In this document: piece by piece, positions 1,801-23,553 of the stretch
Layout of the letters: every line of letters begins with the position of its first letter
How positions within the stretch are numbered: the first letter of the stretch is position 1
From: Parvularculales bacterium
GTDB taxonomy: Bacteria > Pseudomonadota > Alphaproteobacteria > JAPOUT01 > JBAJNM01
DNA length: 35,759 nucleotides
Direction of reading: 5' to 3'
Assembly: GCA_036881865.1 (NCBI GenBank)
Contig: JBAJNM010000015.1
Location: 1-35,759, forward strand
Program-made: the position numbers and the translations under genes
Notes under the pieces: generated by a model
Databases searched by the model: none
The model's input: only the letters and a program-made list of their open reading frames with translations
What the model was told of the DNA's origin: nothing

Positions 1801-2768
1801 AGTCCTGTTATGGCCGCTTCAACATCTATATCTCCGGCGACAAGGGAAGCCACCGCTTCGGCAATTGGCATCTCGACTCCCAGCCCCCCCGCTAAATCCC
1901 GCAAGGCCAGCGCCGTATGCACTCCTTCGCTGACCGAGCGGCGCTCTGCCAGAACATTCTCAAGAGTCAGCCCTTCTCCCAACGCTACCCCTAAAGACAT
2001 ATTACGCGACGACACACTTGATCCGGTTAAAACCAAATCTCCCAAGCCCGATAATCCGTTTAATGTTTCCGCCTTCCCCCCCAACGCCATACCCAGACGG
2101 GCCAACTCAGAAAAGCCGCGCGTCAATAAGGCCGACCGTGCGCTTTCTCCAAGGCGGCGTCCCTGCACCACACCACAGGCAATGGCCAGTACATTTTTTA
2201 CGGCCCCCCCAATTTGGGCACCAATAATATCTTCGCTCACGTAAGGACGAAACAACGGCGTTGCTATGGCGTGTGCCAAGGCCTTTCCGTGGGGTACCGG
2301 CGCGGCAAGAGTAACCGCCGTCGGCAGCCCCCGTGCTACCTCACCGGCAAAACTCGGACCTGATAAAACCCCCACAATCACAGATGGCGCTTCTTCGGCT
2401 AACACCTGAGACATAAGAAGTCCTGTTTTTTGCTCAATGCCTTTTGCGCAAATGAGAACGATAGTCTTTTCCGCCAAATGCGGTGCTAATTCCCGCACCA
2501 CACCCCGCAGATGCTGCGCCGGACAGACCAGCAAAATTAAATCCGCCGCCGCCGTTTCGGACAATGACGTAGTGGCCTTTATATTTTCCGGTAAAGCAAT
2601 CTCCGGCAAAAACACCGAATTTTCATGCGTCCCATTGATGGCCTCCGCAACCTCCGGCTCTCTGGCCCATATCATAACCTCCCGGCCCGCCTGAACACAC
2701 ACCACGGCAAGGGCCGTCCCCCATGCGCCAGCACCCGCAACCGCAATGCGTTGAATAGTCCGCGCCAT
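1767..2768 (-). CDS. gpsA: NAD(P)H-dependent glycerol-3-phosphate dehydrogenase
   Basis: GpsA reduces dihydroxyacetone phosphate to sn-glycerol-3-phosphate for phospholipid synthesis in the cytoplasm. The 333-residue protein has the normal family length. It begins with a Rossmann dinucleotide site (VAGAGAWGTALA, about residues 9-20). It contains the catalytic-lysine helix GGAVKNVLAIACGVVQG and the RSALLTRGFSEL segment near residues 190-225. The gene lies 5 bases after the tsaD stop on the same strand, so the two are probably cotranscribed. Oddity: the last residues (LLSRPLRSEND) are encoded by a copy of the repeat family that fills the acs-gpsA spacer, so the C-terminus may have been replaced or extended by a repeat. 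Confidence 0.96.
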   Translation of the reverse strand: MARTIQRIAVAGAGAWGTALAVVCVQAGREVMIWAREPEVAEAINGTHENSVFLPEIALPENIKATTSLSETAAADLILLVCPAQHLRGVVRELAPHLAEKTIVLICAKGIEQKTGLLMSQVLAEEAPSVIVGVLSGPSFAGEVARGLPTAVTLAAPVPHGKALAHAIATPLFRPYVSEDIIGAQIGGAVKNVLAIACGVVQGRRLGESARSALLTRGFSELARLGMALGGKAETLNGLSGLGDLVLTGSSVSSRNMSLGVALGEGLTLENVLAERRSVSEGVHTALALRDLAGGLGVEMPIAEAVASLVAGDIDVEAAITGLLSRPLRSEND

Positions 2769-2773
2769 CTCAA

Positions 2774-3862
2774 CTATCCCGCCAGTGCCTGTGTTGTGAC
2801 AAGCTCATCAAGAGGCCACCGCGCCCGTGGCGCCATATCCAGCGCATCGTTCTTATATCCCCGCGCCAGACGCTCCGCCCCCGCCCAGGCAATCATGGCG
2901 GCGTTATCGGTGCACAATGCAGGTGGTGGCATGTGACAGTCAAAACCATTCTCCTCCACCAGACGCACAAGATGCTCCCTCAACACGGCATTGGCCGCGA
3001 CACCTCCCGCCACCACCAAGCGATTACCGTTATTACCGCCAAGCTCACCGGCAAACATATCCATGGCACTTTTTGTTCTGTCACACAGGCAATCCGCGAC
3101 AGCATCCTGAAACGCCGCCGCCGTATCGGCTTGCAGCGTGGCATCTTTCACGGGGTTTGTCTCAACAACCCGCCGCACGGCCGACTTGAGTCCCGAAAAT
3201 GAAAAATCCGCCCCCGGCTGCCCGACAAGCGGACGCGGAAGAGTAAACCGTGAAGCATTGCCCCGGCGCGCCACTTTTTCTACTGCCGGACCACCGGGCC
3301 AGCCCAAGCCTAACAACCGGGCGGTTTTATCAAATGCCTCCCCTGCCGCATCATCAAGAGTTGTTCCATATATACGGTAATCTCCCACTCCCTTAACCGC
3401 CAGCAACTGGGTATGTCCGCCCGATACCAACAACAGCAAATAAGGAAACGCCGTATCACCGGTCAAACGCGCCGTCAGAGCATGGCCCTCCAGATGATTC
3501 ACCCCCACAAAAGGCACCCCCCGCGCCAACGCTATAGCCTTGCCCATGGTCAGGCCCACCATGACCCCGCCTACAAGCCCGGGTCCGGCGGTAGCCGCAA
3601 CAGCCTCAATGTTCCCCTTGGTCAGCCCGGCCGTATCCAGCGCCCTTTTAATCAACCCGTCCAAGTGAAGAATATGGCTACGGGCGGCAATTTCCGGCAC
3701 TACCCCGCCATAAGGGGCATGTTCTTTTGTCTGGGAGAGGATTTCATTGGCTAAAATTGTGCCGGTTCCCTCAGCCTCCCAACGTACAACGGCCGCTGCC
3801 GTTTCATCGCAGCTGGTTTCAAGGCCAAGCACCACAAAAGCAGAAGGGGGAGAAGACGGCAT
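2774..3862 (-). CDS. tsaD: tRNA N6-adenosine threonylcarbamoyltransferase TsaD
   Basis: TsaD transfers the threonylcarbamoyl group from threonylcarbamoyl-AMP to A37 of ANN-decoding tRNAs, working with TsaB and TsaE. The 362-residue frame shows the Kae1/YgjD ASKHA fold: N-terminal [16 protein letters not shown], the metal-binding HxExH motif in [14 protein letters not shown], the VSGGHTQLL phosphate loop, [17 protein letters not shown], and the C-terminal [12 protein letters not shown]. The start at ATG 3862 leaves a short leader before the conserved core, as is usual. It is upstream of gpsA in a two-gene leftward unit. In many Alphaproteobacteria tsaD faces hemC directly; here about 2.4 kb carrying other genes separates them. 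Confidence 0.97.
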
Positions 3863-4100
3863 AGATCAATCCACAAAACCTAAAGAAGGGGCTTATTTAA
3901 TATGTCACAAAAACGCAGGACTTATATTCTTAACCGGACAAGTAACAATTTGGTTCTTTTCAAGCTTGCGTCCACTTTAAATAATTTCCCAAACCTTTCC
4001 AACACCCTGCCATGATTTTTGCTAATTTTATATATAGTTATATATCAATCCCGTTTCTCAGGAGTTCATCATTCCAAATTTCCCTGACCTCTATCCAATT

Positions 4101-4820
4101 TTGTGGAGAGACAAATTGGATTTTACCGATCTTGATGCGTTGTACAGAGAATATTTTTGTTTGCGAAAGAATGCACCGTCCCGTACTTCACGCGGGAAAA
4201 AGTATTTTGTTGGTCATGACGGTATTCCTTCGACACGCGGTCATAGTAACCGTCGTGAGGAACATAGCGCTATTGCGCTTGTGAATCTTCAACACCATTG
4301 GAAATATCCGCCCGGAGGCGGTTTCCGGTTTCTGGATTATCAGGTTTCTTTGAGAACACAACAGACGGATACGGGTGTTGGCAAGGTCGATATTGTAGGA
4401 ATTAGAGATGACGGGCGATTGATTCTCACCGAGCTCAAGGTCGAGAGCAAACAGAGCAGAAGTAGTGATACACCTTTTTCAGCGCTTCTTCAGGGACTAC
4501 GCTATGCAGCCATCGTCGAGAAGAATCTGGAGGTGATTGCACACGAAGCAAAGGGTTGCTTTGGTGTTGAGGTGAAACAGCTACCGCCCATTGTACAGCT
4601 TCTGGCAACGGTGGAATGGTGGCAACAACAAAGTTTCGACTTCACCGCTCCCGGAAAATCGCAGGAGAGGTTTGCGTCTCTTGTTGATGGGATTGAGAAC
4701 AAAACAGGTGTCTGTGTCGAGTGTCAGGCATTCGATTGTTTGAAAATCTCTATTGGTTCGGGTGGTAAGAAACCCCGGCTTGATCCGAAGCCCAATTTGG
4801 AAGCCGTGCCGTTGCGATGA
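4101..4820 (+). CDS. PD-(D/E)XK nuclease-like protein, first of an overlapping pair
   Basis: The protein is unnamed, 239 residues from TTG 4101. Its core matches a PD-(D/E)XK nuclease arrangement: an N-terminal acidic helix (RREEHSAIAL), then GVGKVDIVGI with Asp97, then LILTELKVE with Glu111-x-Lys113. The role is probably DNA cleavage or nucleic-acid binding in a defence or repair setting; this is inferred. Start choice is uncertain. TTG 4101 lacks a ribosome site, whereas the same frame is open from 4038 and a good AGGAG (4060-4064) sits six bases before ATT 4071, which would add PNFPDLYPIL. The gene overlaps the next by ATGA, implying translational coupling. The pair interrupts the tsaD-hemC junction, suggesting acquisition. 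Confidence 0.6.
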   Translation: MWRDKLDFTDLDALYREYFCLRKNAPSRTSRGKKYFVGHDGIPSTRGHSNRREEHSAIALVNLQHHWKYPPGGGFRFLDYQVSLRTQQTDTGVGKVDIVGIRDDGRLILTELKVESKQSRSSDTPFSALLQGLRYAAIVEKNLEVIAHEAKGCFGVEVKQLPPIVQLLATVEWWQQQSFDFTAPGKSQERFASLVDGIENKTGVCVECQAFDCLKISIGSGGKKPRLDPKPNLEAVPLR

Positions 4821-5761
4821 GTTACAAAGACGACGTTAGTGAGAGGCTGTGGGCCTGGGCGCAACGCAAACACGAAGGACAACTCGACGGCATTGAGAAA
4901 GAAGGACGTCCTCCCGTATTGCTAAAAGAATTTGAGGCGGAGAATATATTGATTGCGCCTGACGGTTTACATGCCGAAGAGGTTCGTGCCGCCATACCAA
5001 AAGGGAAAAGACATCGCTGGTTTAGGAGTTTGCGCAGTTCGCAGGCGTTGGCGCAGAGCGTATTCGCCAATGTTAAGGCTTATGGTCGTCTGGATCTTTT
5101 GCAAAGCGTCAGAGCAGAATGTGGCCGTCCGGCTTTTTATCATGACAATCAAAGTTGGACTCTCGACCTTGAACAAAAAATCACCACCTTAAACGAACCT
5201 CGTCCTACCGAAATCGATGTGCTGTTTCAAAGTTCTGACAGACGTGTTGCTGTGGAATGTAAATTTATGGAAACCGAGTTTGGGACCTGCTCCCGTACGG
5301 GATTGTCTAAAGATGACGCGCAATATTGCAATGGTAATTATGAAATTCAGCAAAGCCGCAAGGAGCGTTGCGCTCTTACCGAGATAGAAATTAAATATTG
5401 GCAATATCTCCCTGAGTTATTTGATTGGTCGTCGGATATGGATTATGCACCTTGTCCCTTTGGAGAAACATATCAATTGGCGCGCAACGCTCTTGCCGCT
5501 ATGCTCTCACCTACAGGCGAGTTTGACCTGACAAGCGGTCACATGCTTATCGTGTATGATCAGCGTAATCCGGCGTTTCAAACGAGAGGTTCCGGCGAAC
5601 AACAATGGCAGAAGGCTTTGGCTTCGTGTCGTGTTCCCGGTTTGCTACGGCGTATAAGTTGGCAGAGATTACTCTCAGCTTTTACCGGAGTGGAGGAGTT
5701 GAAGTGGCTTCCGGATGAATTGGAGCAGAAGTATGGATTCCTTTTTTGCCCGGAAGAATAA
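4817..5761 (+). CDS. PD-(D/E)XK restriction-endonuclease-like protein, second of the pair
   Basis: This 314-residue protein has a nuclease core at PTEIDVLFQSSDRRVAVECK, giving Asp134 and Glu147-Cys-Lys149, the D...ExK pattern of PD-(D/E)XK enzymes. The following stretch FMETEFGTCSRT resembles uncharacterised restriction-endonuclease-like families (I am reminded of the PGN_0703 type, from memory). A larger C-terminal part (residues about 180-314) is rich in aromatic residues and has no motif I recognise. Its ATG overlaps the stop of the upstream nuclease-like gene, so the two products are probably made together and may form a complex. No methyltransferase is adjacent, which argues against a simple type II restriction pair. 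The function remains unproven. Confidence 0.6.
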   Translation: MSYKDDVSERLWAWAQRKHEGQLDGIEKEGRPPVLLKEFEAENILIAPDGLHAEEVRAAIPKGKRHRWFRSLRSSQALAQSVFANVKAYGRLDLLQSVRAECGRPAFYHDNQSWTLDLEQKITTLNEPRPTEIDVLFQSSDRRVAVECKFMETEFGTCSRTGLSKDDAQYCNGNYEIQQSRKERCALTEIEIKYWQYLPELFDWSSDMDYAPCPFGETYQLARNALAAMLSPTGEFDLTSGHMLIVYDQRNPAFQTRGSGEQQWQKALASCRVPGLLRRISWQRLLSAFTGVEELKWLPDELEQKYGFLFCPEE

Positions 5762-5848: not shown

Positions 5849-6022
5849 TCAGCGTCTCCGGTACGGGTCGTCCTCCGGATTGTAACAATCTCCATAATCG
5901 GCTGCTACTCCCGAACAATTATACCAATCACCGGCATTAGCGGGAGCGGCCGTAAAAATCACGGGGCCGCTAAAAGCGAAGGCCATTACAAGGGCCATCG
6001 AAAGTATTGTTAGATTCTTCAT
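5849..6022 (-). CDS. Small exported peptide (57 aa) with signal peptide
   Basis: The frame starts at ATG 6022 because AAGGAGA lies a few bases upstream; a longer frame from 6055 has no such site. The product begins MKNLTILSMALVMAFAFSGP, a typical signal peptide with a Lys-containing n-region and hydrophobic core, ending with a probable signal-peptidase I site at APANA-GD. The predicted mature part is only about 23 residues, polar and acidic with two cysteines (YNCSG and GDCYN) and an Arg-rich end, so a disulfide in the periplasm is possible. It is convergent with the nuclease pair and divergent from hemC. I do not recognise a family. Confidence 0.6.
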   Translation of the reverse strand: MKNLTILSMALVMAFAFSGPVIFTAAPANAGDWYNCSGVAADYGDCYNPEDDPYRRR

Positions 6023-6263: not shown

Positions 6264-7208
6264 ATGCAGCGTCCCCTGCGTATAGGCACCCGCACCAGCC
6301 GTTTATCCCTAGCCCAAACGCAAAGCGTTGTGTCCCTGTTGCAGACAGCCCACGGCCTTGACACCCGGGATATAGAGGTTGTGCCCATCAAAACCCGGGG
6401 CGACAAGATAACGGACCGCAAACTGGCAGATATCGGCGGCAAGGGTCTGTTTACGGCAGAGATGGAACAAAGGCTGCGCGATAAAACTCTGGATATCGCC
6501 GTTCACTCCATGAAAGACGTAACCGTGGATTTGCCCGACGGGCTTATTATCGCCGCCCTGTTATCCCGCGCCGACCCCCGAGATGCGCTGGTCTCAAATC
6601 ATCCACCAAGCAAAGACGGCAAAACCGGCCTTGCAGCCCTGCCTCCCAACGCTCATATCGGTACGGCATCGGTGCGGCGCACGGCCCAGATCAAACACCT
6701 CCGCCCGGACATTTCCACCGGGTTGTTGCGCGGTAACATAGACACACGTCTGAAACGCCTTGAAGAAGGTGCAAGGGACGGTACAATGGATGCCACCATT
6801 CTGGCGTTAGCAGGGCTGGAGCGCATCGACAGGACAGATTGTATCAGTGCTATTCTGGAGCCTGACGAAATGCTCCCCGCTCCCGCTCAGGGCGTCATCG
6901 GTATTGAATGCCGGGCAGATGACACCGCTATCCATGACCTCCTGACTCCTCTTCATGATTCCTCCACCGCCTTTTGTGTTGTGGCGGAGCGCGCCTTTCT
7001 TGGTGCTCTTGACGGCTCCTGCCATACCCCCATAGGGGCGCTGGCCACATTGTCCGGTACCCGGCTCAGACTACGGGGGCAATTACTCTCCTTGGATGGA
7101 AGCCGGTGCGAAACCATCGACATCACCGGCCATCCCGATGAAGCAGAAACCATGGGGTGCAACGGCGCTGAAACGGTACGCCAGCGCATGACAACCCACA
7201 ATGAATGA
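6264..7208 (+). CDS. hemC: Porphobilinogen deaminase (hydroxymethylbilane synthase)
   Basis: HemC polymerises four porphobilinogen units to hydroxymethylbilane in the tetrapyrrole pathway. The 314-residue protein has the usual length and signatures: the N-terminal IGTRTSRLSLAQ, KTRGDKITDRKLADIGGKG, the DIAVHSMKDVTVDLPDG substrate loop, and FLGALDGSCHTPIGALA, whose cysteine carries the dipyrromethane cofactor. ATG 6264 places the conserved start a few residues in, so it is the natural choice. It overlaps hemD by 8 bases, making one transcription unit with hemD and the two membrane-protein genes that follow. The roughly 240-base spacer upstream contains a TATACT (6198-6203) that could be a -10 element, but no clear -35 was found. 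Confidence 0.97.
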   Translation: MQRPLRIGTRTSRLSLAQTQSVVSLLQTAHGLDTRDIEVVPIKTRGDKITDRKLADIGGKGLFTAEMEQRLRDKTLDIAVHSMKDVTVDLPDGLIIAALLSRADPRDALVSNHPPSKDGKTGLAALPPNAHIGTASVRRTAQIKHLRPDISTGLLRGNIDTRLKRLEEGARDGTMDATILALAGLERIDRTDCISAILEPDEMLPAPAQGVIGIECRADDTAIHDLLTPLHDSSTAFCVVAERAFLGALDGSCHTPIGALATLSGTRLRLRGQLLSLDGSRCETIDITGHPDEAETMGCNGAETVRQRMTTHNE

Positions 7209-13054: not shown

Positions 13055-13546
13055 ATGAGTCGGATTTCAGAACCGACAGTCAATGTCGAATTAGGTAATG
13101 TTCTTAGAAAAAAACATCCGCAATGGAATGACTCTAACCGAATTATCGCCGAGCAAACGGGCGTTATTAAAGGAGAAGCTGGTCTTCAACCAGATATTAT
13201 TGTTTCTCACCCTAATGGATTGCCAGTAAGCGTTGAGACTGAGTTCCATCCCGCACCAACTGTTCAGCAAGATGCTATCGCCCGCTTGGGTAAGAAACTG
13301 GCAAGCACTGATAAGGTGATTGAGCAGCCATTTCTGTGCGGATTCCTGCCAGACTTAAGACTGTCGATCAACAAAAACTCAAACAGGAAATTGAAGAGAT
13401 GGAGGTGGAGTTCTGTGTCTTTTCTGGCTCCCCTGAAAAACCAGTTCGCCAGCCGGAAACGGGCTGGATATTGGGTGATGTTGACAGCCTCGCATCCTGT
13501 ATTGAACTCACGGCACTTTCAGAAAACAGAATTGAAGATAGCATGA
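13055..13546 (+). pseudogene. N-terminal domain of the large methyltransferase, cut off by a 1-nt frameshift
   Basis: From ATG 13055 the first 91 residues look like a genuine domain, containing LQPDIIVSHPNGLPVSVETE and DAIARLGKKLASTDKVIEQ. This D...ExE pattern is similar to nuclease-like domains placed in front of DNA methylases. After codon VIEQ (about 13326) the frame turns into unrelated sequence, while the neighbouring frame continues naturally as AISVRIPARLK. Inserting one G in the GAGCAGCCATT context would join the two into one protein of about 980 residues. The remaining residues of this frame (to 13546) are out-of-frame readthrough. There is no homopolymer tract, so slippage is not obvious; a real deletion or a sequencing error are both possible. 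No clear ribosome site precedes the ATG. Confidence 0.75.
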
Positions 13547-15999
13547 ATGTTCTGGAGAACGGCATAGAGCAAGCAGCCAGATTGTTACGTGATGAGTGCG
13601 CAAACTCTCCTCATCCTTTGGAAGAAATTGCTAAGATATTACATCAGCAAGAATGCGAACAAACTACTCGGATGGCGATGGCGATTATTGCCAATGCGTT
13701 CACATTCCATCTGTCTATTGAGGGCACACAGCAAAATATTCAGGGCACACCTCAATATATAGAAACCCTTGAAGCACTATGGAGCGGAAGTAAGGCACAT
13801 CGAAAAGAGAATATTCTGGAGCATTGGAGGTTTATTTACAATCATATAAACTATTGGCCAATCTTTAAGATTGCTTCTGATGTTCTCACTCCAATACCCA
13901 ATAGAATTTTCGGTAAGATTCTTGATAGGTTGTATAAGGTAGCCGTTGAACTTGATCATCTTGGTGCCACCAGTCAGCATGATATGTGCGGCCGGATTTT
14001 TCAACGTCTCATATCAGATCGCAAGTTTCTAGCTACATTCTATACTTTACCAACTTCTGCCACTCTTCTGGCCGAAGTTGCGGTTTCACGTCTTAATGTG
14101 GACTGGGCTAATGATGAGAAATTGAAAAAATTACGAATTGCCGATTTTGCTTGTGGAACCGGTGCACTTCTGAATGCTGCCTACGGGGCCGTATTGACGC
14201 GCTATAGACGAACCGGAGGAAACGATAAAGATATACATGCAGGAATGATTCAAGAAGCGCTTTTCGGTACAGATATAATGCCTGCTGCATCCCATCTGAC
14301 TGCTACAGTTCTATCAAGTGTGCATCCAGGTGTTCCATTTAAAGACACCTCTATTGAAACCCTGCCTTATGGAGAAGTTCAATTAGAGACAGGCCCTAAA
14401 ATTGAAATTGGAGCTCTTGGTCTGATTGAGGAAGAAGCAATATCTCTGCTTTTTGATACCGGCCGGAAACGTGTGATTGGGAAAGGCGGCAGCTCTAAAA
14501 AAAATTTGGAGTTGCCTCATGGCACTTTTGATCTTGTTATTATGAATTCTCCGTTTACAAGCCCAACTAATCATAAGTTGCCCGATGTAGATGACATAAC
14601 CGCTGTACCAGTGCCATCATTCGCTGGCTTGGGAACAAATAAAGACGATCAGAAAAAGATGGCGGAGCGCCTAAAGAGTCTCAATACAAAATCTCAGGCT
14701 GGCCATGGCAATGCGGGTCTCGCCAGCAATTTTATTGATGTTGCGAACGCTAAAGTTAAAAATGGTGGTGTTATTGCTCTGGTGCTTCCAGCCGCATTCG
14801 CACAGGGAGACGGGTGGTCTTCTGCCCGCCAACTTCTCAATCGTCACTACCAAGATATAACTATCATCAGCATTGCTAACACGGGGGCTAAAGACAGTTC
14901 TTTTTCCGCCGACACAGGAATGGCTGAGGTACTGATTATAGCAACAAAAAACGAATCGTCTTCTCCAACTACTGACCCGACGTGGCTCTATATCAACCTG
15001 TTTCATCGTCCTAAAACGATGTTGGAGGCGGTGACAGTTGCGCGGGAAATAAAGAGGATAAACTCCTCTACACCATACGGTAATATTTACATTGGTGATG
15101 AGGATAAAATTGGCAACTATTTTTGCGGAGCTATTGATAATACGGGTTGTGCAGGCATAAGAGAGTTTAATGTGATTAATGCTGGTGTAAGCCTTAGCAA
15201 AAACCAGATACAGTTACCTCGTAACTATTCGGTGCAGAATCTTCCGTTGACACAACTCAATAATTTGGGAACTAGAGGTCTGGTAGACCGAGACATCAAC
15301 GGTGCAAAATCTTCCAATACTGGTCTCTGGCGAGGGCCCTTTGATATTACAAAAATACAACCTAATACCACAACAACCTATCCAGTTTTATGGGGACACG
15401 ATGCGACAAGGGAAACGCGAATGGTTGTTGAACCAGACAAAGAAGGGATAGTTCGACCAGAATGTGATTACAAGGCGAAAGAACAATGGGATGAGATAGC
15501 TTCGTGCCTTCATTTCAGCCGCGATTTCCGAATCAATTCTCAGCCCTTGACCGCCTGTATGACGCCTGTTCTGTCAATAGGTGGAGCGGCGTGGCCGAAT
15601 TTTAAATGTGACGAAATTCGCTGGGAAAAACCACTTGTTCTGTGGGCTAATACTACTTTGGGTCTTTTATCCTTCTGGTGGTTAGGCACCCGACAGCAAC
15701 TAGGTCGGGCAAGAGTAACAATCAAAAGATTGCCGGCGCTTGTCGTACTCGACGTAAGACAACTATCTCCGACACAACTTAATCAAGCCGCTGACATATT
15801 TGATGAATTGAAGGAACTGACTTTATTACCTGCTAATGAGGCGTGGCGAGATGATAACCGGAAAACACTTGATAAGGCCGTATTGATTGATTTACTTGGG
15901 CTGGATGATGGCATAATGGAGGCACTGGGTCTTTTACGTCAACAATGGTGTGAGGAACCATCCGTTTATGGTAGTGAGAGAAAAAAACCTCATTCGTAG
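13336..15999 (+). CDS. Large N6-adenine DNA methyltransferase (main frame)
   Basis: This 887-codon frame carries the body of a class-I DNA methylase: motif I (IADFACGTGALLNAAYGAVL, Asp270 to Gly275 from GTG 13336), and motif IV as NSPF (residues 404-407, in FDLVIMNSPF) instead of the usual NPPF/NPPY. A long central region follows (GHGNAGLASNFIDVA, GGVIALVLPAAFAQGDGWSS), then a C-terminal part with target-recognition-like character (LVLWANTTLGLLSFWWLGTR). Expected activity is S-adenosylmethionine-dependent methylation of adenine in DNA. The first part of the protein lies in another frame from 13055, so GTG 13336 is merely where this frame opens; without the frameshift the protein would start at 13055. 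It is the first cargo gene, less AT-rich than the following operon, and may be a separate acquisition. Confidence 0.85.
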   Translation: MRIPARLKTVDQQKLKQEIEEMEVEFCVFSGSPEKPVRQPETGWILGDVDSLASCIELTALSENRIEDSMNVLENGIEQAARLLRDECANSPHPLEEIAKILHQQECEQTTRMAMAIIANAFTFHLSIEGTQQNIQGTPQYIETLEALWSGSKAHRKENILEHWRFIYNHINYWPIFKIASDVLTPIPNRIFGKILDRLYKVAVELDHLGATSQHDMCGRIFQRLISDRKFLATFYTLPTSATLLAEVAVSRLNVDWANDEKLKKLRIADFACGTGALLNAAYGAVLTRYRRTGGNDKDIHAGMIQEALFGTDIMPAASHLTATVLSSVHPGVPFKDTSIETLPYGEVQLETGPKIEIGALGLIEEEAISLLFDTGRKRVIGKGGSSKKNLELPHGTFDLVIMNSPFTSPTNHKLPDVDDITAVPVPSFAGLGTNKDDQKKMAERLKSLNTKSQAGHGNAGLASNFIDVANAKVKNGGVIALVLPAAFAQGDGWSSARQLLNRHYQDITIISIANTGAKDSSFSADTGMAEVLIIATKNESSSPTTDPTWLYINLFHRPKTMLEAVTVAREIKRINSSTPYGNIYIGDEDKIGNYFCGAIDNTGCAGIREFNVINAGVSLSKNQIQLPRNYSVQNLPLTQLNNLGTRGLVDRDINGAKSSNTGLWRGPFDITKIQPNTTTTYPVLWGHDATRETRMVVEPDKEGIVRPECDYKAKEQWDEIASCLHFSRDFRINSQPLTACMTPVLSIGGAAWPNFKCDEIRWEKPLVLWANTTLGLLSFWWLGTRQQLGRARVTIKRLPALVVLDVRQLSPTQLNQAADIFDELKELTLLPANEAWRDDNRKTLDKAVLIDLLGLDDGIMEALGLLRQQWCEEPSVYGSERKKPHS

Positions 16000-16082
16000 A
16001 AACTGCCCATATATTCTCCATATCACTATTCCACTGATGATAGCGTGAAAGGTGATTTGTTGTTTGTTCTTGGAGGGTTATT

Positions 16083-16175
16083 ATGGGCTGTCTGCATGAT
16101 CTTCATCAAGCACACCTTCATACGGACGGTTGTGAAAAAAGGCTGAAGCAAGAGATTTTCAAGTTGAATCACTAA
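16083..16175 (+). CDS. Possible 30-residue small protein or leader peptide
   Basis: A short frame (MGCLHDLHQAHLHTDGCEKR and 10 further residues) starts at ATG 16083, five bases after a strong GGAGGG (16072-16077). It is rich in His and has two Cys. It lies between the methyltransferase and the ParB-like gene, just before a TATAAT (16180-16185). The strong ribosome site is the only support; it could be a leader, a small regulator or chance. Confidence 0.3.
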   Translation: MGCLHDLHQAHLHTDGCEKRLKQEIFKLNH

Positions 16176-16253
16176 AGTATATAATGAACAAATATTCAGT
16201 GTCCTAATATCTGAAGGGTGTACCTGAACGCATGTTTAAGTGGAGAAATAAAT

Positions 16254-17468
16254 ATGGCGATGGAAAGTAAACACGCGCAAGAAATTGACGCTTATATAGC
16301 AGCAGATCCGGATTGCAAGAAGGGAAAGCAGAGATTCGAAATTAACGGAAAAATCGAATTCTTAGAGTCTTATGCCTTGCCCACTAGGTTATTGCGATAC
16401 AATCGTGATAACGGAAGGTTTAACCTTGAGATAAAAGAACACGAAATTAAAATTAATAGGAAGCTTGATCCTGAAGATAAAAAGGATGTGCAAGAAATTA
16501 AACGTCTGCTACTTGAAGACGATGCAAAGGCTGAAGCTGTTAAATTAAAGAATGACCTGAGAACATTGGGAGAGCAGCGAGAAGTGGCAGCCATCACTTG
16601 GGATGGTGTTGTCATTAACGGTAATAGAAGGATGGCCGTGATAGAGGAGCTAGATGCTGATGATCCTTCAGGCAAATGGCAAAAATTATGGGTAGCAAAG
16701 TTACCTAGGAATATATCTGATTCAGATTTGTGGAAAATTGAAGCCGGACTCCAATTGTCAAAGGCCAAAGTTGCAGATTATGGACCGGTAAATAATTTAT
16801 TAATGGTACGTCAGGGCGATGAAGCAGGACTCTCACCTAATGAAATTGCCAGAGCAATGTATGGATGGACTGCCGATCAGGTTGAAAAGGATCTAGAGCG
16901 ATTAAAACTAATTGATATTTTTTTAGAATTCATGGGACAACCTGAAAATTATGGAATAATAAAGAAATTTACATTATCTGAACATTTCCAAGATATACAA
17001 AAAACCATGCAGCAGTTAAAGACTGCGGGCTTATCTAAAAAACTACAATTAGAAGAATTAAAAAATATATTTAAGTTTTTAAGAGGTAACATTCTTCAGA
17101 AGGATGAAGCTTCCTTCACACATCTTCAAATAAGAAGAATTGGGAAAATGTTACAAGAACAAGGTACGAAAGAAGCCTTAACCAAAGATTTCAATAAATA
17201 CCCGGATAACACGCCTATTCCATCAGATCTATTAAATGATAATTTTGATAACGCTACCGATATTGCGAAAAATGAAGCAGATAAGGCAAAACCAGTAAAG
17301 CTCATAGAGAAAGCACTTGTGGCGTTAAGAACTATAGACCAAAAAAATGAAGCCTTTCTTTCTCCTGTTGATACAGATTCGTTAGTGAGACCGCTAAAAA
17401 CTATAGCAACATTAGCAAAGAAGATGAGTGCTAAAATAGAAACACATAATGATAAACATAGCGATTAA
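16254..17468 (+). CDS. ParB-like protein, first gene of the AT-rich cargo operon
   Basis: The chosen start is ATG 16254, eight bases after GGAG (16242-16245); a GTG at 16218 is in frame but lacks a ribosome site. The 404-residue protein has a ParB/sulfiredoxin-like domain: an N-terminal LESYALPTRLLRYNRDNGRF segment, then ITWDGVVINGNRRMAVIEEL with the GNRR box at residues 123-126, then EAGLQLSKAKVADYGPVNNL and a helix-turn-helix-like LSPNEIARAMYGWTADQVEK. The second half (about 230-404) is helical, Lys-rich and unrecognised. ParB-type domains bind DNA and in some families hydrolyse CTP or cut DNA; which applies is unknown. It overlaps the helicase gene by 20 bases, and a TATAAT at 16180-16185 may mark the operon promoter. 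Confidence 0.75.
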   Translation: MAMESKHAQEIDAYIAADPDCKKGKQRFEINGKIEFLESYALPTRLLRYNRDNGRFNLEIKEHEIKINRKLDPEDKKDVQEIKRLLLEDDAKAEAVKLKNDLRTLGEQREVAAITWDGVVINGNRRMAVIEELDADDPSGKWQKLWVAKLPRNISDSDLWKIEAGLQLSKAKVADYGPVNNLLMVRQGDEAGLSPNEIARAMYGWTADQVEKDLERLKLIDIFLEFMGQPENYGIIKKFTLSEHFQDIQKTMQQLKTAGLSKKLQLEELKNIFKFLRGNILQKDEASFTHLQIRRIGKMLQEQGTKEALTKDFNKYPDNTPIPSDLLNDNFDNATDIAKNEADKAKPVKLIEKALVALRTIDQKNEAFLSPVDTDSLVRPLKTIATLAKKMSAKIETHNDKHSD

Positions 17469-19284
17469 TAATCATAAATTAATAGTCAAAGATGAGACAC
17501 TGAAGCTTTTTAATTGGGAGCATCGTACTTTTTTTATCGTATTATTAGATTTTGAAGAAGATAAAGAACAATGCCAGTATTCTTTATCTGATAAAAATAA
17601 TTTTTCAGAAGTAATTAAGGACGTAGTACTTTATTTTGAGGAAGAAAATGAAAAGTATGAAGTTGATGAAAACGTCCAAAAAATAATATCAAAAATAAAG
17701 AAGCAAGAGGAAGATTTTAATCAAGCTAAATCTAATATAGATAAAAACGTTTCTGTATCTCTCACTGACTCATTTAAAAGACAATTAAAACCTTATCAGG
17801 AAGAAGGTGTGAAGCACTTTCTGAAGATAAGTAATGGGGCGAATTTTTCTGTTCCCGGAAGCGGTAAAACTACTATGGTTTACGCTTACTATAATCAATT
17901 AAAACTACAACAAGTTGTAGAAAAAATATTTGTTGTTGGGCCGTATAGTAGCTTCATGCCATGGGAAGAAGAGTCGAAGGAATGTTTCGGTCATAAACTG
18001 AAAACGGTTAGATTATCAGGCAACAATCGAGAAAGATCTTACTTTCAATCGACAAATTATGAATTATTTTTATGCGGTTATCAAACGGTAGTTAATGATT
18101 TGCGTTCAATTATTTCACTGTGCGAACAGCATAAATTCTTACTAGTCGTAGATGAGTCACATAACATAAAAAATATTAATGGTGTATGGGCAAATGCTTT
18201 ACTTGAAATAGCACCTTATGCAGAAAGGCGAGTTATACTATCTGGTACACCCATGCCCCATGGTTACATTGATTTATGGTCGCAAATGACTTTTCTATGG
18301 CCGGATAATAAAATTTTACACGTAAAAGCGGTGTATCAAAATCGTTGTAAAGATGAAAATCAACAAGAAAGAATTAAAGAAGATATTAGGCCCTTTTTTT
18401 ATAGGGTTAAAAAATCAGATTTAAGACTCCCGAAACAAAACTTCACTAGAGAAAAATACGAATTAAAACCTATACAAGCGCAAATATATTCTGCTTTATC
18501 AAAAAAATTGATATCCGATCTAGATTTGCAAATTGAAGATAGAATGAAGCTGAGGCAATGGAGAAAAGCAAAAATAGTGCGCTTGTTACAAGTGGCCTCA
18601 AATCCAGCACTACTTAATAAATATTCAGATGAATTTGAAATTCCAGCTTTATCAGCGGACGGCACATCATTGATAGATTTAATAGATAAATATTCAAAAT
18701 TTGAAGAGCCAGCAAAATTTGATATAGCGATATCTCTCGTTAAAAAACTATTATCTGAAGATAGAAAAGTGCTTTTGTGGACCAGCTTTGTACATAATAT
18801 AAAAATGCTTCAGATAAAATGTAACGAGCAGAACATTCCTTATTATTCTATCTACGGAGCTATTCCAAAAGATGATAGTGCTGATGTATACTTTAATAGA
18901 GAAAAACAAATTCGGTCATTTAAAAAAACAAATACACCATCTTTGTTAATTGCAAATCCCGCTGCATGCGCAGAATCAATTTCTCTGCATACGGTTTGTA
19001 ATAATGCAATTTATCTTGATAGAACTTTCAACTGTGGGCAGTTTCTTCAATCATTAGACAGAATTCACAGAATAGGTCTTAAAGATCAGGCCAATTATCA
19101 TATTTTAATAGCTAAATCGACAATAGACGAAACTATTGACCGCAGACTTGAAGAAAAAGAAGAAGCCATGAGAAACCTTCTAGAGGACGATGTGCCACTG
19201 GGAGATTATGAGGAACAAGAAGACGTTACGACAGAAGATTTTGAAGCAACTGTTGCAGATATTATATCTCAAGGCCAAAAATGA
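17449..19284 (+). CDS. SNF2-type helicase/translocase
   Basis: The 611-residue protein has a superfamily 2 motor: SFKRQLKPYQEEGVKHFL (Q-like region), Walker A with PGSGKT at residues 136-141, DESH at 235-238 (motif II), SGTP at 265-268 (motif III), LLWTSFVHNIKML at the start of the second lobe, LLIANPAACAESISLH (motif V) and FLQSLDRIHRIGL (motif VI). DESH and the SLDRIHRIG ending are typical of SNF2 proteins found in restriction and DISARM-like systems, which move along DNA without unwinding. The first 110 residues are a unique, acidic extension. It overlaps its neighbours by 20 bases (upstream) and 4 bases (downstream ATGA), so the products are made in coupled fashion. A role as the DNA-tracking motor of the system is inferred. 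Confidence 0.88.
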   Translation: MINIAINNHKLIVKDETLKLFNWEHRTFFIVLLDFEEDKEQCQYSLSDKNNFSEVIKDVVLYFEEENEKYEVDENVQKIISKIKKQEEDFNQAKSNIDKNVSVSLTDSFKRQLKPYQEEGVKHFLKISNGANFSVPGSGKTTMVYAYYNQLKLQQVVEKIFVVGPYSSFMPWEEESKECFGHKLKTVRLSGNNRERSYFQSTNYELFLCGYQTVVNDLRSIISLCEQHKFLLVVDESHNIKNINGVWANALLEIAPYAERRVILSGTPMPHGYIDLWSQMTFLWPDNKILHVKAVYQNRCKDENQQERIKEDIRPFFYRVKKSDLRLPKQNFTREKYELKPIQAQIYSALSKKLISDLDLQIEDRMKLRQWRKAKIVRLLQVASNPALLNKYSDEFEIPALSADGTSLIDLIDKYSKFEEPAKFDIAISLVKKLLSEDRKVLLWTSFVHNIKMLQIKCNEQNIPYYSIYGAIPKDDSADVYFNREKQIRSFKKTNTPSLLIANPAACAESISLHTVCNNAIYLDRTFNCGQFLQSLDRIHRIGLKDQANYHILIAKSTIDETIDRRLEEKEEAMRNLLEDDVPLGDYEEQEDVTTEDFEATVADIISQGQK

Positions 19285-20330
19285 ATTTACCCGAGACCAG
19301 TATACTTAACTTTTTCAATAAAGTGCTAATTTCATTGCAAGAATTAACAAAAGAAGAGAACACATGTTTGATTGAATCTCTTGTTAGGCAATGCCAATTG
19401 GTAGCTGTTGGTGGGCAAATAGGTGATTACCCATTAATTATAAAACAATGTCATCATTGTGGGCTTGTACAGATAAAAGATGATCAGGTAGCCATTTCTG
19501 TTTTAGGTGATCAATTTTTAAAAGAAAACAATCAAAAACATTTTGAAATTAACGAATCTCAAAAACAGCTAATTGTAAAAAAAATAGTATTTCATGGGCC
19601 ATGGAGTTCATATGCAAGACCAATTCTTGAACAATTTTCTTTAAATCACAACAGAGCCACTTATGAACTATCAATTGTTGATAAACCATTAACAACAACA
19701 CATGAAACAATCGTTCATTTCTTTATTTTTTTGGGGCTTTTATATCAAAAAGACAACCATTTGATTGTAGTCAATAAAAAGTATGCACGTTTGGTTTATG
19801 AATTAACTGCTGATAGGAAAGCGGTGACCGAGCAACAACTCGAAAGAAATTTAATGGAAAATAAGAAACTGGGCGCACAGGCTGAAGTAGCAGTCGTACA
19901 ATTTGAAAAAGAGAGATTAATAAAACTAGGAAATAAGATGCAAGCAGAACTTGTGCGACGCATCAGTATAATAAACGAGGCTGCCGGTTATGATGTGGAA
20001 TCATTCGATGGTGATTCGGATAATATATTTGCTAATCGCTTAATTGAAGTCAAAGCTAGCCGCGAAGACAAAGTTCGTTTTTATTGGACGAAGAATGAGA
20101 GAAACGTTGCCGAAGCAAAGGGTGATACATATTGGATATATATGTTAAAAAATTTTGAGGAAGGATGTTCGAATATATCACCTATAATGATTCAAAATCC
20201 TAATCATTTAATTGAACAACAGAATGAATACTTTTCCATGGAACCCTGTAAGTTTTTGATTCAAGCAGAACCCAATGTTGCTCTGAAAGAACATACTCAA
20301 AATGAGTTAAAGTGGTATCAAGTAGGTTGA
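19281..20330 (+). CDS. DUF3883-type PD-(D/E)XK nuclease-like protein
   Basis: The 349-residue protein has a C-terminal region with the DUF3883 pattern. It has a helix with acidic residue (LGAQAEVAVVQFEKERL), then AAGYDVESFDGDSD, then RLIEVKASRED with Glu256-x-Lys258, and FYWTKNERNVAEAKGDTYWIY. DUF3883 domains are PD-(D/E)XK-like and are common beside helicases and methyltransferases of defence systems. The N-terminal 180 residues look like winged-helix DNA-binding segments (for example HCGLVQIKDDQVAISVLG). Its ATG overlaps the helicase stop by ATGA and the methyltransferase-HNH gene starts 6 bases later. It is a plausible effector nuclease; activity is unproven. Confidence 0.75.
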   Translation: MNLPETSILNFFNKVLISLQELTKEENTCLIESLVRQCQLVAVGGQIGDYPLIIKQCHHCGLVQIKDDQVAISVLGDQFLKENNQKHFEINESQKQLIVKKIVFHGPWSSYARPILEQFSLNHNRATYELSIVDKPLTTTHETIVHFFIFLGLLYQKDNHLIVVNKKYARLVYELTADRKAVTEQQLERNLMENKKLGAQAEVAVVQFEKERLIKLGNKMQAELVRRISIINEAAGYDVESFDGDSDNIFANRLIEVKASREDKVRFYWTKNERNVAEAKGDTYWIYMLKNFEEGCSNISPIMIQNPNHLIEQQNEYFSMEPCKFLIQAEPNVALKEHTQNELKWYQVG

Positions 20331-20336
20331 TATCAC

Positions 20337-21482
20337 ATGAAGCCAAAAGCATTAAATAAAATATACGTTGGTGAATGTGAAGTACTTTTACCTGACACAA
20401 GGTTATTTCCGGATAGAAGTGTGAATTTAATAGTCACATCTCCTCCATATGCTGAAAAAAGAAAGATCTCCTATGGGGGTGTACGCGAGAGTGAATATGT
20501 TGAATGGTTTTTACCAATTGCAAAAGAACTCCACAGAATTTTGAAGGATGATGGATCATTTATATTGAATATAAAAGAGCATCCTAAAAATGGAGAGAGG
20601 TGCACTTATGTTTTGGAACTCGTGTTAGAGTTAAAAAAACAGGGCTGGTTCTGGATTGAAGAATATTGCTGGGTTAAAAAAAACGCTTTCCCAGGCAAAT
20701 GGCAAAACAGGTTCAGGGATTCTTGGGAACGGTGCTTTCATTTTGCAAAAAACAGAAAATTCAGGATGTATCAGGATCAGGTAAAAGTACCGATAGGTGA
20801 TTGGGCAGATAAAAGATTCAAATCAATGACTGAAGCTGATTTTGTTCGTCGTGTGTCTAAAAATAATAGCCATTTAGCACGCAATGTTTCAAATTGGTTG
20901 AATAAGAAAAAAGTTAATCCTTCAAATGTTTTGATATTTGAAGAGGAGCATAGGTTATATTTAAGCAATGTAGTTGAAACTGCTGTTTCAAAATCACTGA
21001 TAAATCATAGTGCAATTTTTCCTATTGAGTTGCCCACGTGGTTTATCACCCTGTTTACAAAAGAGGGTGATGTAATTTTGGATCCGTTTATGGGCTCGGG
21101 CTCAACTGCTGCGGCGTCTTTACTACTTCAAAGAAGGTTCCTAGGCACGGAATTATTTCCCAAGTATGCGAAAGCGGCAAACAAACATATAAAAGAGATA
21201 GAAACTGAAGTATTAAAAAAACACCAATACAAAGATAAGATTTGGAAACTAGCCAAGCCGATACGTGGCAAGGACCCGGAAATATATCGTCAGGATCCTT
21301 ATGGCAATGAGCTTCGCTATGACAGCTATGGTAAGAACAGTAAAAAGGGTTGGGTAATTGACCATATCAAACCGGTAGCCAGAGGAGGTAGCGAAGCCAT
21401 CCGGAATCTACAAGCCCTGAAAACATCAGTAAACCTAGCTAAGGGTGATTCCCTAAACAAGAAAAGCCGTCATAATCAGTAA
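20337..21482 (+). CDS. DNA methyltransferase fused to a C-terminal HNH nuclease domain
   Basis: The 381-residue protein starts with a beta-class amino-methyltransferase: motif IV TSPPY (residues 34-38), a central variable region (about 150-220) and motif I as DPFMGSGSTAAASLL with LGTELFPKYAKAA near residues 245-280. Such enzymes make N4-methylcytosine or N6-methyladenine. From about residue 320 a second domain follows, with YGKNSKKGWVIDHIKPVARG (Asp342-His343), then a conserved NLQALKTSVNLAKGD. This is a full HNH signature with the final Asn/Lys. The codons of this tail look less AT-rich than the rest, suggesting a later fusion. It is the last gene of the four-gene operon, and modification and cutting in one chain is unusual here. 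Confidence 0.85.
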   Translation: MKPKALNKIYVGECEVLLPDTRLFPDRSVNLIVTSPPYAEKRKISYGGVRESEYVEWFLPIAKELHRILKDDGSFILNIKEHPKNGERCTYVLELVLELKKQGWFWIEEYCWVKKNAFPGKWQNRFRDSWERCFHFAKNRKFRMYQDQVKVPIGDWADKRFKSMTEADFVRRVSKNNSHLARNVSNWLNKKKVNPSNVLIFEEEHRLYLSNVVETAVSKSLINHSAIFPIELPTWFITLFTKEGDVILDPFMGSGSTAAASLLLQRRFLGTELFPKYAKAANKHIKEIETEVLKKHQYKDKIWKLAKPIRGKDPEIYRQDPYGNELRYDSYGKNSKKGWVIDHIKPVARGGSEAIRNLQALKTSVNLAKGDSLNKKSRHNQ

Positions 21483-22457: not shown

Positions 22458-22477
22458 AGGCTTACTAAGCCTTTTTT
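22458..22477 (+). terminator. Weak intrinsic terminator at the transposase 3' end
   Basis: AGGCTT (22458-22463) pairs with AAGCCT (22467-22472) around ACT and is followed by a T-run, so it would stop rightward transcription entering the transposase gene. It overlaps the transposase stop codon. The stem is short. Confidence 0.4.
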
Positions 22478-23553
22478 CTTTGCTTCTTATAACGGAACTT
22501 GCCGGTATAGCGGCTACGGCGCTCAGGGTAGTACGCGCCTTCTTTACCTGAGCCCGAAGGCAAACCGTTGTCAGATGTCAGGGTCTCGTAATCAAGGCTA
22601 TGCCCCAGCATACGTTGAAAGATGATAGCCATCTGTTCTTCCGTATCAAGGTCGCGGATGTTCCAGCGTCCCGCAAACGCCTTGACGTAGCGCTGCAGGT
22701 GCTTCGGGGACATCTTGTGATGCACTCCCGTAATTGATCTTGTCAGATGCGACCAGGCAGACTCCGTGATGTTGGTCGAAGCCTGACGTGACATCCCGTC
22801 AAATGCATCGTATGGTTTCACATATTCTTTACGCGAATGGTTGACGGCAATACGCTTGCGCCTGACCTTCGAGTAGTGACGGGCCTCGTCCGTATAGATT
22901 ATGCTGTCTTCAGGGATAATCCTGTCTATGATCCGGGCAATGGTGCGGCTGCGGGTGTCAGGTATCACGTCCATCCAGACTTTTCTGGACTCCTTCTCCG
23001 TGATGCCGATTATAATCATCTTTGTCGCGCCCCCGTGACTGTTCGGAATCCTGTCAATTCTATGCTTGTTTGCCTCTAAACCTCCGATGTAGCATTCGTC
23101 AACCTGAAACTCGGTTCCGGTTGCAAACTCTTCCGGTACATCGTCGTAGACAAAGCCTTCCATCATGCGGTGGAGCATGTGCCATGCGGTTGCCTCCCGG
23201 ACTTCCAGATCCCGGTGTATCTTCATCGCCGAAATGGACTTGAGGTTGGTCATGAAATTATAGGCCAGCAATGTCCACTTCTCTACGGGAACTCTGGACG
23301 AGGCCATCAGTGTTCCGGTTTTAAGAGAAAAATACTTCCGGCAGTCCTTGCACCAGTAAGGCATGGATTTGTGGGTTGCGGTACTGGTCTCCGGACCCCC
23401 GCAATAGGGGCAGTGCCGTTCTTCGGGCCAGCGAAGGTCTGCCAGCCAGTCCGCGGCTTTCACCGGGTCTCCGAATTTTTTGACGGCTGAAACCATGCCT
23501 ATTCCTTTACGATGCGCCCGTCCCGGACTGTTGACATATTCTTGGTAAATCAT
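22465..23553 (-). CDS. IS1595-family (ISXO2-like) transposase
   Basis: The 362-residue protein is intact. It has an N-terminal zinc-ribbon (CPYCGG and CKDC, residues about 48-70), then the ISXO2-type DDE domain: FQVDECYIGG (first Asp), IYTDEARHY (second Asp) and NITESAWSHLTRSITGVHHK (final acidic/Asn region) leading to RYVKAFAGRWNIRD. A GGAGAG ribosome site precedes ATG 23553 and a TTGACA-N17-TAGGCT promoter lies 27-55 bases upstream. It should cut and join the 41-bp ends and make 8-bp duplications, as seen here. The Lys/Arg-rich tail (RYTGKFRYKKQRKKA) may bind DNA. Confidence 0.95.
   Translation of the reverse strand: MIYQEYVNSPGRAHRKGIGMVSAVKKFGDPVKAADWLADLRWPEERHCPYCGGPETSTATHKSMPYWCKDCRKYFSLKTGTLMASSRVPVEKWTLLAYNFMTNLKSISAMKIHRDLEVREATAWHMLHRMMEGFVYDDVPEEFATGTEFQVDECYIGGLEANKHRIDRIPNSHGGATKMIIIGITEKESRKVWMDVIPDTRSRTIARIIDRIIPEDSIIYTDEARHYSKVRRKRIAVNHSRKEYVKPYDAFDGMSRQASTNITESAWSHLTRSITGVHHKMSPKHLQRYVKAFAGRWNIRDLDTEEQMAIIFQRMLGHSLDYETLTSDNGLPSGSGKEGAYYPERRSRYTGKFRYKKQRKKA

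Follow-up and report, generated by a model that had tools for sequence, protein, structure and literature searches.

A recurrent and mobile two-nuclease gene pair at a tsaD-hemC junction, with a probable role in defence

Two overlapping genes, called A and B here, were found between tsaD and hemC in the window, i.e. the whole 35,759-nt stretch of contig JBAJNM010000015.1 that was analysed. They form a real and mobile pair encoding two predicted nucleases. The function that we infer for it comprises mutual binding of A and B, cutting by both active sites, DNA as the substrate and a role in defence. With a probability of roughly 0.6, the two proteins make up a heteromeric PD-(D/E)XK endonuclease, carried as a mobile, methyltransferase-free cassette and acting most likely in anti-phage or anti-plasmid defence.

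Gene A (4071..4820, + strand) encodes a 249-amino-acid PD-(D/E)XK nuclease-like protein belonging to an unnamed family and gene B (4817..5761, + strand), which has an ATG start, a 314-amino-acid protein with a predicted restriction-endonuclease fold of the REase-ARP family (PF22558). The stop codon of A and the start codon of B share an ATGA (4817..4820, + strand), visible in the sequence and also kept in two same-order relatives (L005 and L006). The pair is flanked on the left by tsaD (2774..3862, - strand, Pfam PF00814) and on the right by hemC (6264..7208, + strand, Pfam PF01379/PF03900). This junction is gene-free in three of three same-order relatives (G001-G003), where it measures 44, 44 and 108 nt. 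A scan of the junction for promoters and terminators returned no more than chance. A small ORF of about 57 amino acids with a signal-peptide-like N-terminus (5849-6021, - strand) was also noticed between B and hemC. No methyltransferase gene adjoins the pair in the window, and visual inspection of the ORF lists around the homologues showed none there either. The first-pass annotation had described two ATGA-linked genes with D...ExK cores, set between tsaD and hemC at a normally gene-poor junction, and all of this was borne out; its statement that they have no methyltransferase partner is correct for the pair itself and, within what was inspected, for its homologues, but the window does contain two methyltransferase genes 7.5-15 kb downstream, in a separate cluster.

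The 5' end of gene A contains no ATG. An ATT at 4071 stands six bases past an AGGAG ribosome-binding-like site (4060..4064, + strand), this position aligns with the ATG or GTG starts of relatives, and a dead A paralogue in the same genome shows the same layout, with AGGAG, 6 nt and then ATA. On the strength of these three observations, 4071, which is also the start given in the first-pass annotation, was taken as the likely start of A. The first common start codon is a TTG at 4101, from which the Asp97/Glu111/Lys113 of the first-pass annotation had been counted; numbered from 4071, these residues are D107, E121 and K123. The non-AUG start (ATT in A, ATA in the paralogue) is possibly conserved and may limit expression.

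D107, E121 and K123 are invariant in all 15 A homologues (34-62% identity), as is the helix motif GLRYAAI (Q141-GLRY), and the motifs NRREEH and LDYQ were noted in addition. A was without a family match in Pfam, NCBIfam and PHROGs, and sequence searches of the PDB with A and B gave nothing meaningful. Weak profile matches were obtained to Cas4, NucS and PDC-S11, all over the D...ExK region. The PADLOC PDC-S11 profile reached an E-value of only 0.002 with the window A and at best 1e-6 in the A family (dead paralogue), and PDC families are candidates rather than proven systems. The AF2 model of A (pLDDT 88, pTM 0.89) displays a core made of a helix (62-72), three strands (84-93, 105-112 with D107, 117-123 with E121 and K123), a helix (135-151) and a strand (174-180), which is the helix-strand-strand-strand-helix-strand order of PD-(D/E)XK enzymes carrying the D...ExK triad. 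When this model was compared with the PDB using Foldseek, NucS (2vld), SduA (8ps5, E 0.01), Exo5 and SfsA came near the top and Card1 and HamA lower; the top matches were mainly PD-(D/E)XK proteins, with low TM-scores, a best E-value of 0.0076 and none at or below 0.001. The fold was thus assigned on residues and topology, with Foldseek as support only, and on that basis the A product is a well supported PD-(D/E)XK fold and a predicted nuclease. SduA of Shedu is itself a PD-(D/E)XK nuclease acting in defence and is among the best Foldseek matches of A, but it is a single protein and the match is weak, whereas A has B as its neighbour or fusion partner. No Shedu model appeared among the PADLOC profile matches of A, and by profile A is neither NucS nor Shedu.

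Gene B matches PF22558 with an E-value of 1.7e-24 and 87.3 bits (cut-off 27). Its residues E119, D134, E147, K149 and Q220, which include the D134/E147/K149 core as numbered in the first-pass annotation, are invariant in 20 PF22558 members ranging from close to very divergent. With invariant catalytic residues across distant homologues of both genes, chance motif matches were rejected. By all sequence criteria tested, including score and catalytic residues, B is a full member of PF22558; a PD-(D/E)XK core in B is predicted from the family and the model. Six cysteines (C102, C148, C158, C171, C185 and C213) are invariant in close relatives of B and absent from the most divergent group, and these could bind metal. 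A and B are not recognisable duplicates of one another (hhalign probability 0.4%).

A fast-evolving effector REase has been described in bacterial conflict systems, in contexts centred on ADP-ribosylglycohydrolase (PMC9503650). PF22558 is probably this domain, judging from its Pfam name and context; a literature search for 'REase-ARP' by name found no papers. The pair departs from the reported context: genes for an ADP-ribosylglycohydrolase, an ARPP, a Nudix/WYL regulator or a TY-chaperone were not seen nearby (its flanks are gpsA, tsaD, hemC and hemD), and B has a dedicated second nuclease, A, instead. The membership of B stands, since the ADP-ribose gene context is no part of the Pfam definition. 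PF22558 proteins without A also exist, at loci L020 and L022 and on Rhizobium plasmids. On Rhizobium plasmids (loci L036-L038, e.g. L036 5059-7246) a conserved set surrounds a distant PF22558 protein, with a DUF2726 protein upstream and, downstream, a small protein that is weakly similar to DUF6998 and carries a D...EIK motif. This set is possibly another multi-nuclease cassette, so PF22558 proteins may frequently act together with another nuclease-like protein.

The association of A with B was then considered across genomes. Thirteen A loci came from a search of named genomes and a scan of the class added G279, after which the loci were profile-searched. A directly precedes B in six genomes, namely that of the window and two Hyphomicrobiales, two Pseudomonadales and one Bryobacterales (Acidobacteria) MAGs. 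In three Rhodobacterales (Aestuariivita, Roseinatronobacter and the cultured Antarctobacter heliothermus DSM 11445) the two are joined in a single protein of 576 amino acids, the Roseinatronobacter copy being incomplete at the edge of the fetched stretch. A divergent PF22558 relative follows A in G279 and in a Binatia MAG (L013, L025), and in a Caldilineaceae MAG (L029) a DUF6946 protein (2487-3302) lies 18 bases upstream of the A gene. The PD-(D/E)XK clan is CL0236. DUF6946 has been assigned to clan CL0236 (PMC10584680). Altogether, a second nuclease-type gene adjoins or is fused to A in 12 of the 15 intact A genes; in the other three, a PF22558 relative is found about 5 kb away (L033), A lies near a contig edge (L028) or there is no close partner (L026). 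PF22558 occurs in only 7 of 385 genomes of the class (~2%), so the company of A and a nuclease-type partner is not due to chance.

Distance matrices of A and B from nine pairs were strongly correlated (r=0.948, permutation p=1e-4), a value that shows shared history and not binding, since matched inheritance alone gives such a value. For the fused proteins, one alignment (A5), in which MAFFT had aligned the C-terminal end of A with B, was dropped and a trimmed one (A7) used. The model of the fusion reached a pTM of 0.54 with no confident interface between subunits, and Foldseek with this model gave weak, mixed matches. Taken together, the A-B pair is a real unit whose linkage is well supported. 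The first-pass annotation had proposed a heteromeric restriction or abortive-infection module, naming co-occurrence in other genomes as a test and structural models lacking a nuclease fold as grounds for rejection. The pair recurs, even as a fusion, and the models show such a fold; co-occurrence, fusion and fold support a heteromeric nuclease module well, which may act by restriction or by abortive infection.

Several observations indicate that the pair moves. In two Hyphomicrobiales relatives, from the same order as the window genome, it is inserted between the propionyl-CoA carboxylase genes pccB and pccA, with joints of 21 and 17 bases in L005; in the other (L006/L024) only the pccB side is available, as the contig edge falls inside B. 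The tsaD-hemC junction of both relatives is empty (44-base gap), as is that of G001, and conversely the pccB-pccA gap of the window genome is empty (11 bases). When the window is compared with L005, the two genes of the pair show 63-66% identity and pS of 0.62-0.68, against 58% for tsaD and 43% for hemC with pS of 0.77-0.81 and saturated silent sites. Because the pair is less diverged than tsaD and hemC between the same genomes, its common ancestor appears younger than that of the chromosome. Its GC content is 0.48 compared with 0.58 for tsaD/hemC. As judged from these sequence comparisons, the pair is mobile and horizontally transferred. The A family is patchy, being present in 5 of 385 genomes of the class. 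No close copies of the pair were found in the phage, plasmid and viral-contig collections searched. A phage or plasmid origin was rejected, with zero A homologues among the phages, plasmids and viral contigs of these collections; B homologues on plasmids are distant ones only, in Rhizobium, Sinorhizobium and Ensifer.

Ratios of dN/dS were 0.11-0.19 for A and B in most comparisons and 0.03 for pccB. For the young pair L030/L032, A gave a ratio of 0.63, from few changes and a dS of only 0.05. By this sequence measure, both genes are under purifying selection that is looser than on pccB.

The window genome holds the dead A copy mentioned above (L007 9123-9850, - strand; G000:C36:15071-15964), which has an internal TGA and a B truncated right after ATGAGT. 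It is bounded by 24-bp inverted repeats (TCAAACCGGACGTGTTGATGGGGG) and adjoined by a DruA (Druantia) gene. The 17-base core of these repeats has ten occurrences in the genome, allowing up to one mismatch, a recurrence that suggests IS or MITE ends. One fused A-B copy has a ParB gene on one side and an anti-restriction ArdC gene on the other. A life as sponge symbionts is probable for some relatives; bin names like CLI1 and RHO3 would be in keeping with Cliona and Rhopaloeides. An enrichment of restriction and CRISPR genes has been reported for sponge symbionts, together with evidence for lateral transfer (PMC8163846). As a separate observation, the window contains a second defence-like cluster (13336-21482), which encodes an 887-amino-acid Eco57I-type methylase-like protein, a 416-amino-acid protein without Pfam match, a SNF2/ZorD-DpdE-like helicase, a NOV_C-domain (DUF3883-type) nuclease-like protein and an N6/N4 DNA methylase with HNH; the gene set as a whole is not covered by any one named PADLOC system. 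An IS1595/ISXO2-type transposase gene (22465-23553, - strand) adjoins it.

Two different REase subunits encoded together are known from heterodimeric Type IIT restriction enzymes (BbvCI, PMC6326814) and from LlaJI (PMC1459862). The A-B pair resembles these in gene layout, but A and B are of other families and the pair comes without methyltransferase genes, for which reason it was not filed as a restriction-modification system. We propose that A and B would be two subunits of one endonuclease, each with its own metal-binding D...ExK site. Given a site in each subunit, the enzyme could make a double-strand break by two different active sites, or one subunit could break and the other recognise DNA. 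Since the pair is not accompanied by a protective methylase, discrimination of self from non-self would have to rest on something else. Candidates are features of phage or plasmid DNA, namely bases or structures that are modified or unusual, and an activation step.

The lack of a methyltransferase shielding the host DNA would also suit an abortive-infection or toxin-type nuclease, an inactive pair that infection would trigger to cleave DNA or RNA of the host itself. REases of this kind have been proposed as second-line suicidal effectors (PMC9503650), and the weak ATT start of A would hold levels low. Yet the pair has no conserved sensor, antitoxin or regulator gene beside it, and its location inside a metabolic operon in two relatives suggests continuous harmless expression, which makes a suicidal role unlikely in our view. 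Such a quiet, operon-embedded site would seem to fit restriction of foreign DNA better than a suicide toxin.

A division of labour is conceivable as well, one subunit cutting and the other being a nuclease-derived subunit for DNA recognition or regulation, like R1/R2 of LlaJI, where split duties have a precedent (PMC1459862). The constancy of A beside partners that vary (PF22558, divergent PF22558 or DUF6946) fits this arrangement, but all catalytic residues are kept in both subunits across the homologues, unexpected for a dead nuclease, and we regard it as improbable, at around one chance in eight or so.

The insertions, which are free of other cargo and fall between housekeeping genes (tsaD/hemC, pccB/pccA and immediately downstream of a thiolase gene), with joints of about 12-22 nt at the pccB/pccA and thiolase sites, might point to a selfish pair resembling a free-standing homing endonuclease, which would spread by cutting DNA at unoccupied intergenic sites and bring the host no advantage. 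This is very unlikely: the insertion sites are unrelated among genomes, while homing enzymes go back to one site, and the ParB-ArdC setting of one copy and the dead copy beside DruA speak against it. The view of A as a DNA-repair nuclease acting on mismatches, like NucS/EndoMS, is scarcely credible, because A, despite having its best structural and profile resemblance to NucS (a weak match over the catalytic core), scores about 12-16 bits (window A 11.8) with an equivalog profile whose cut-off is 216, shows no other sign of repair and has a patchy, horizontally transferred distribution unlike that of a repair gene.

The heteromeric defence endonuclease thus remains our preferred reading. A broader version of it is put forward tentatively and is rather doubtful: A would be the constant subunit of a modular, methyltransferase-free two-nuclease immune system, in which the nuclease partner can be exchanged (PF22558 types or DUF6946) and which passes among distant phyla. 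If the proposal is true, the pair would be a small defence cassette of two nucleases able to distinguish foreign DNA from its own with no methylase, and one whose constant subunit swaps nuclease partners and for which natural single-chain fusions exist. The unnamed A family would then gain a likely role and a partner, and PF22558, the role of which is only predicted, would gain a new context.
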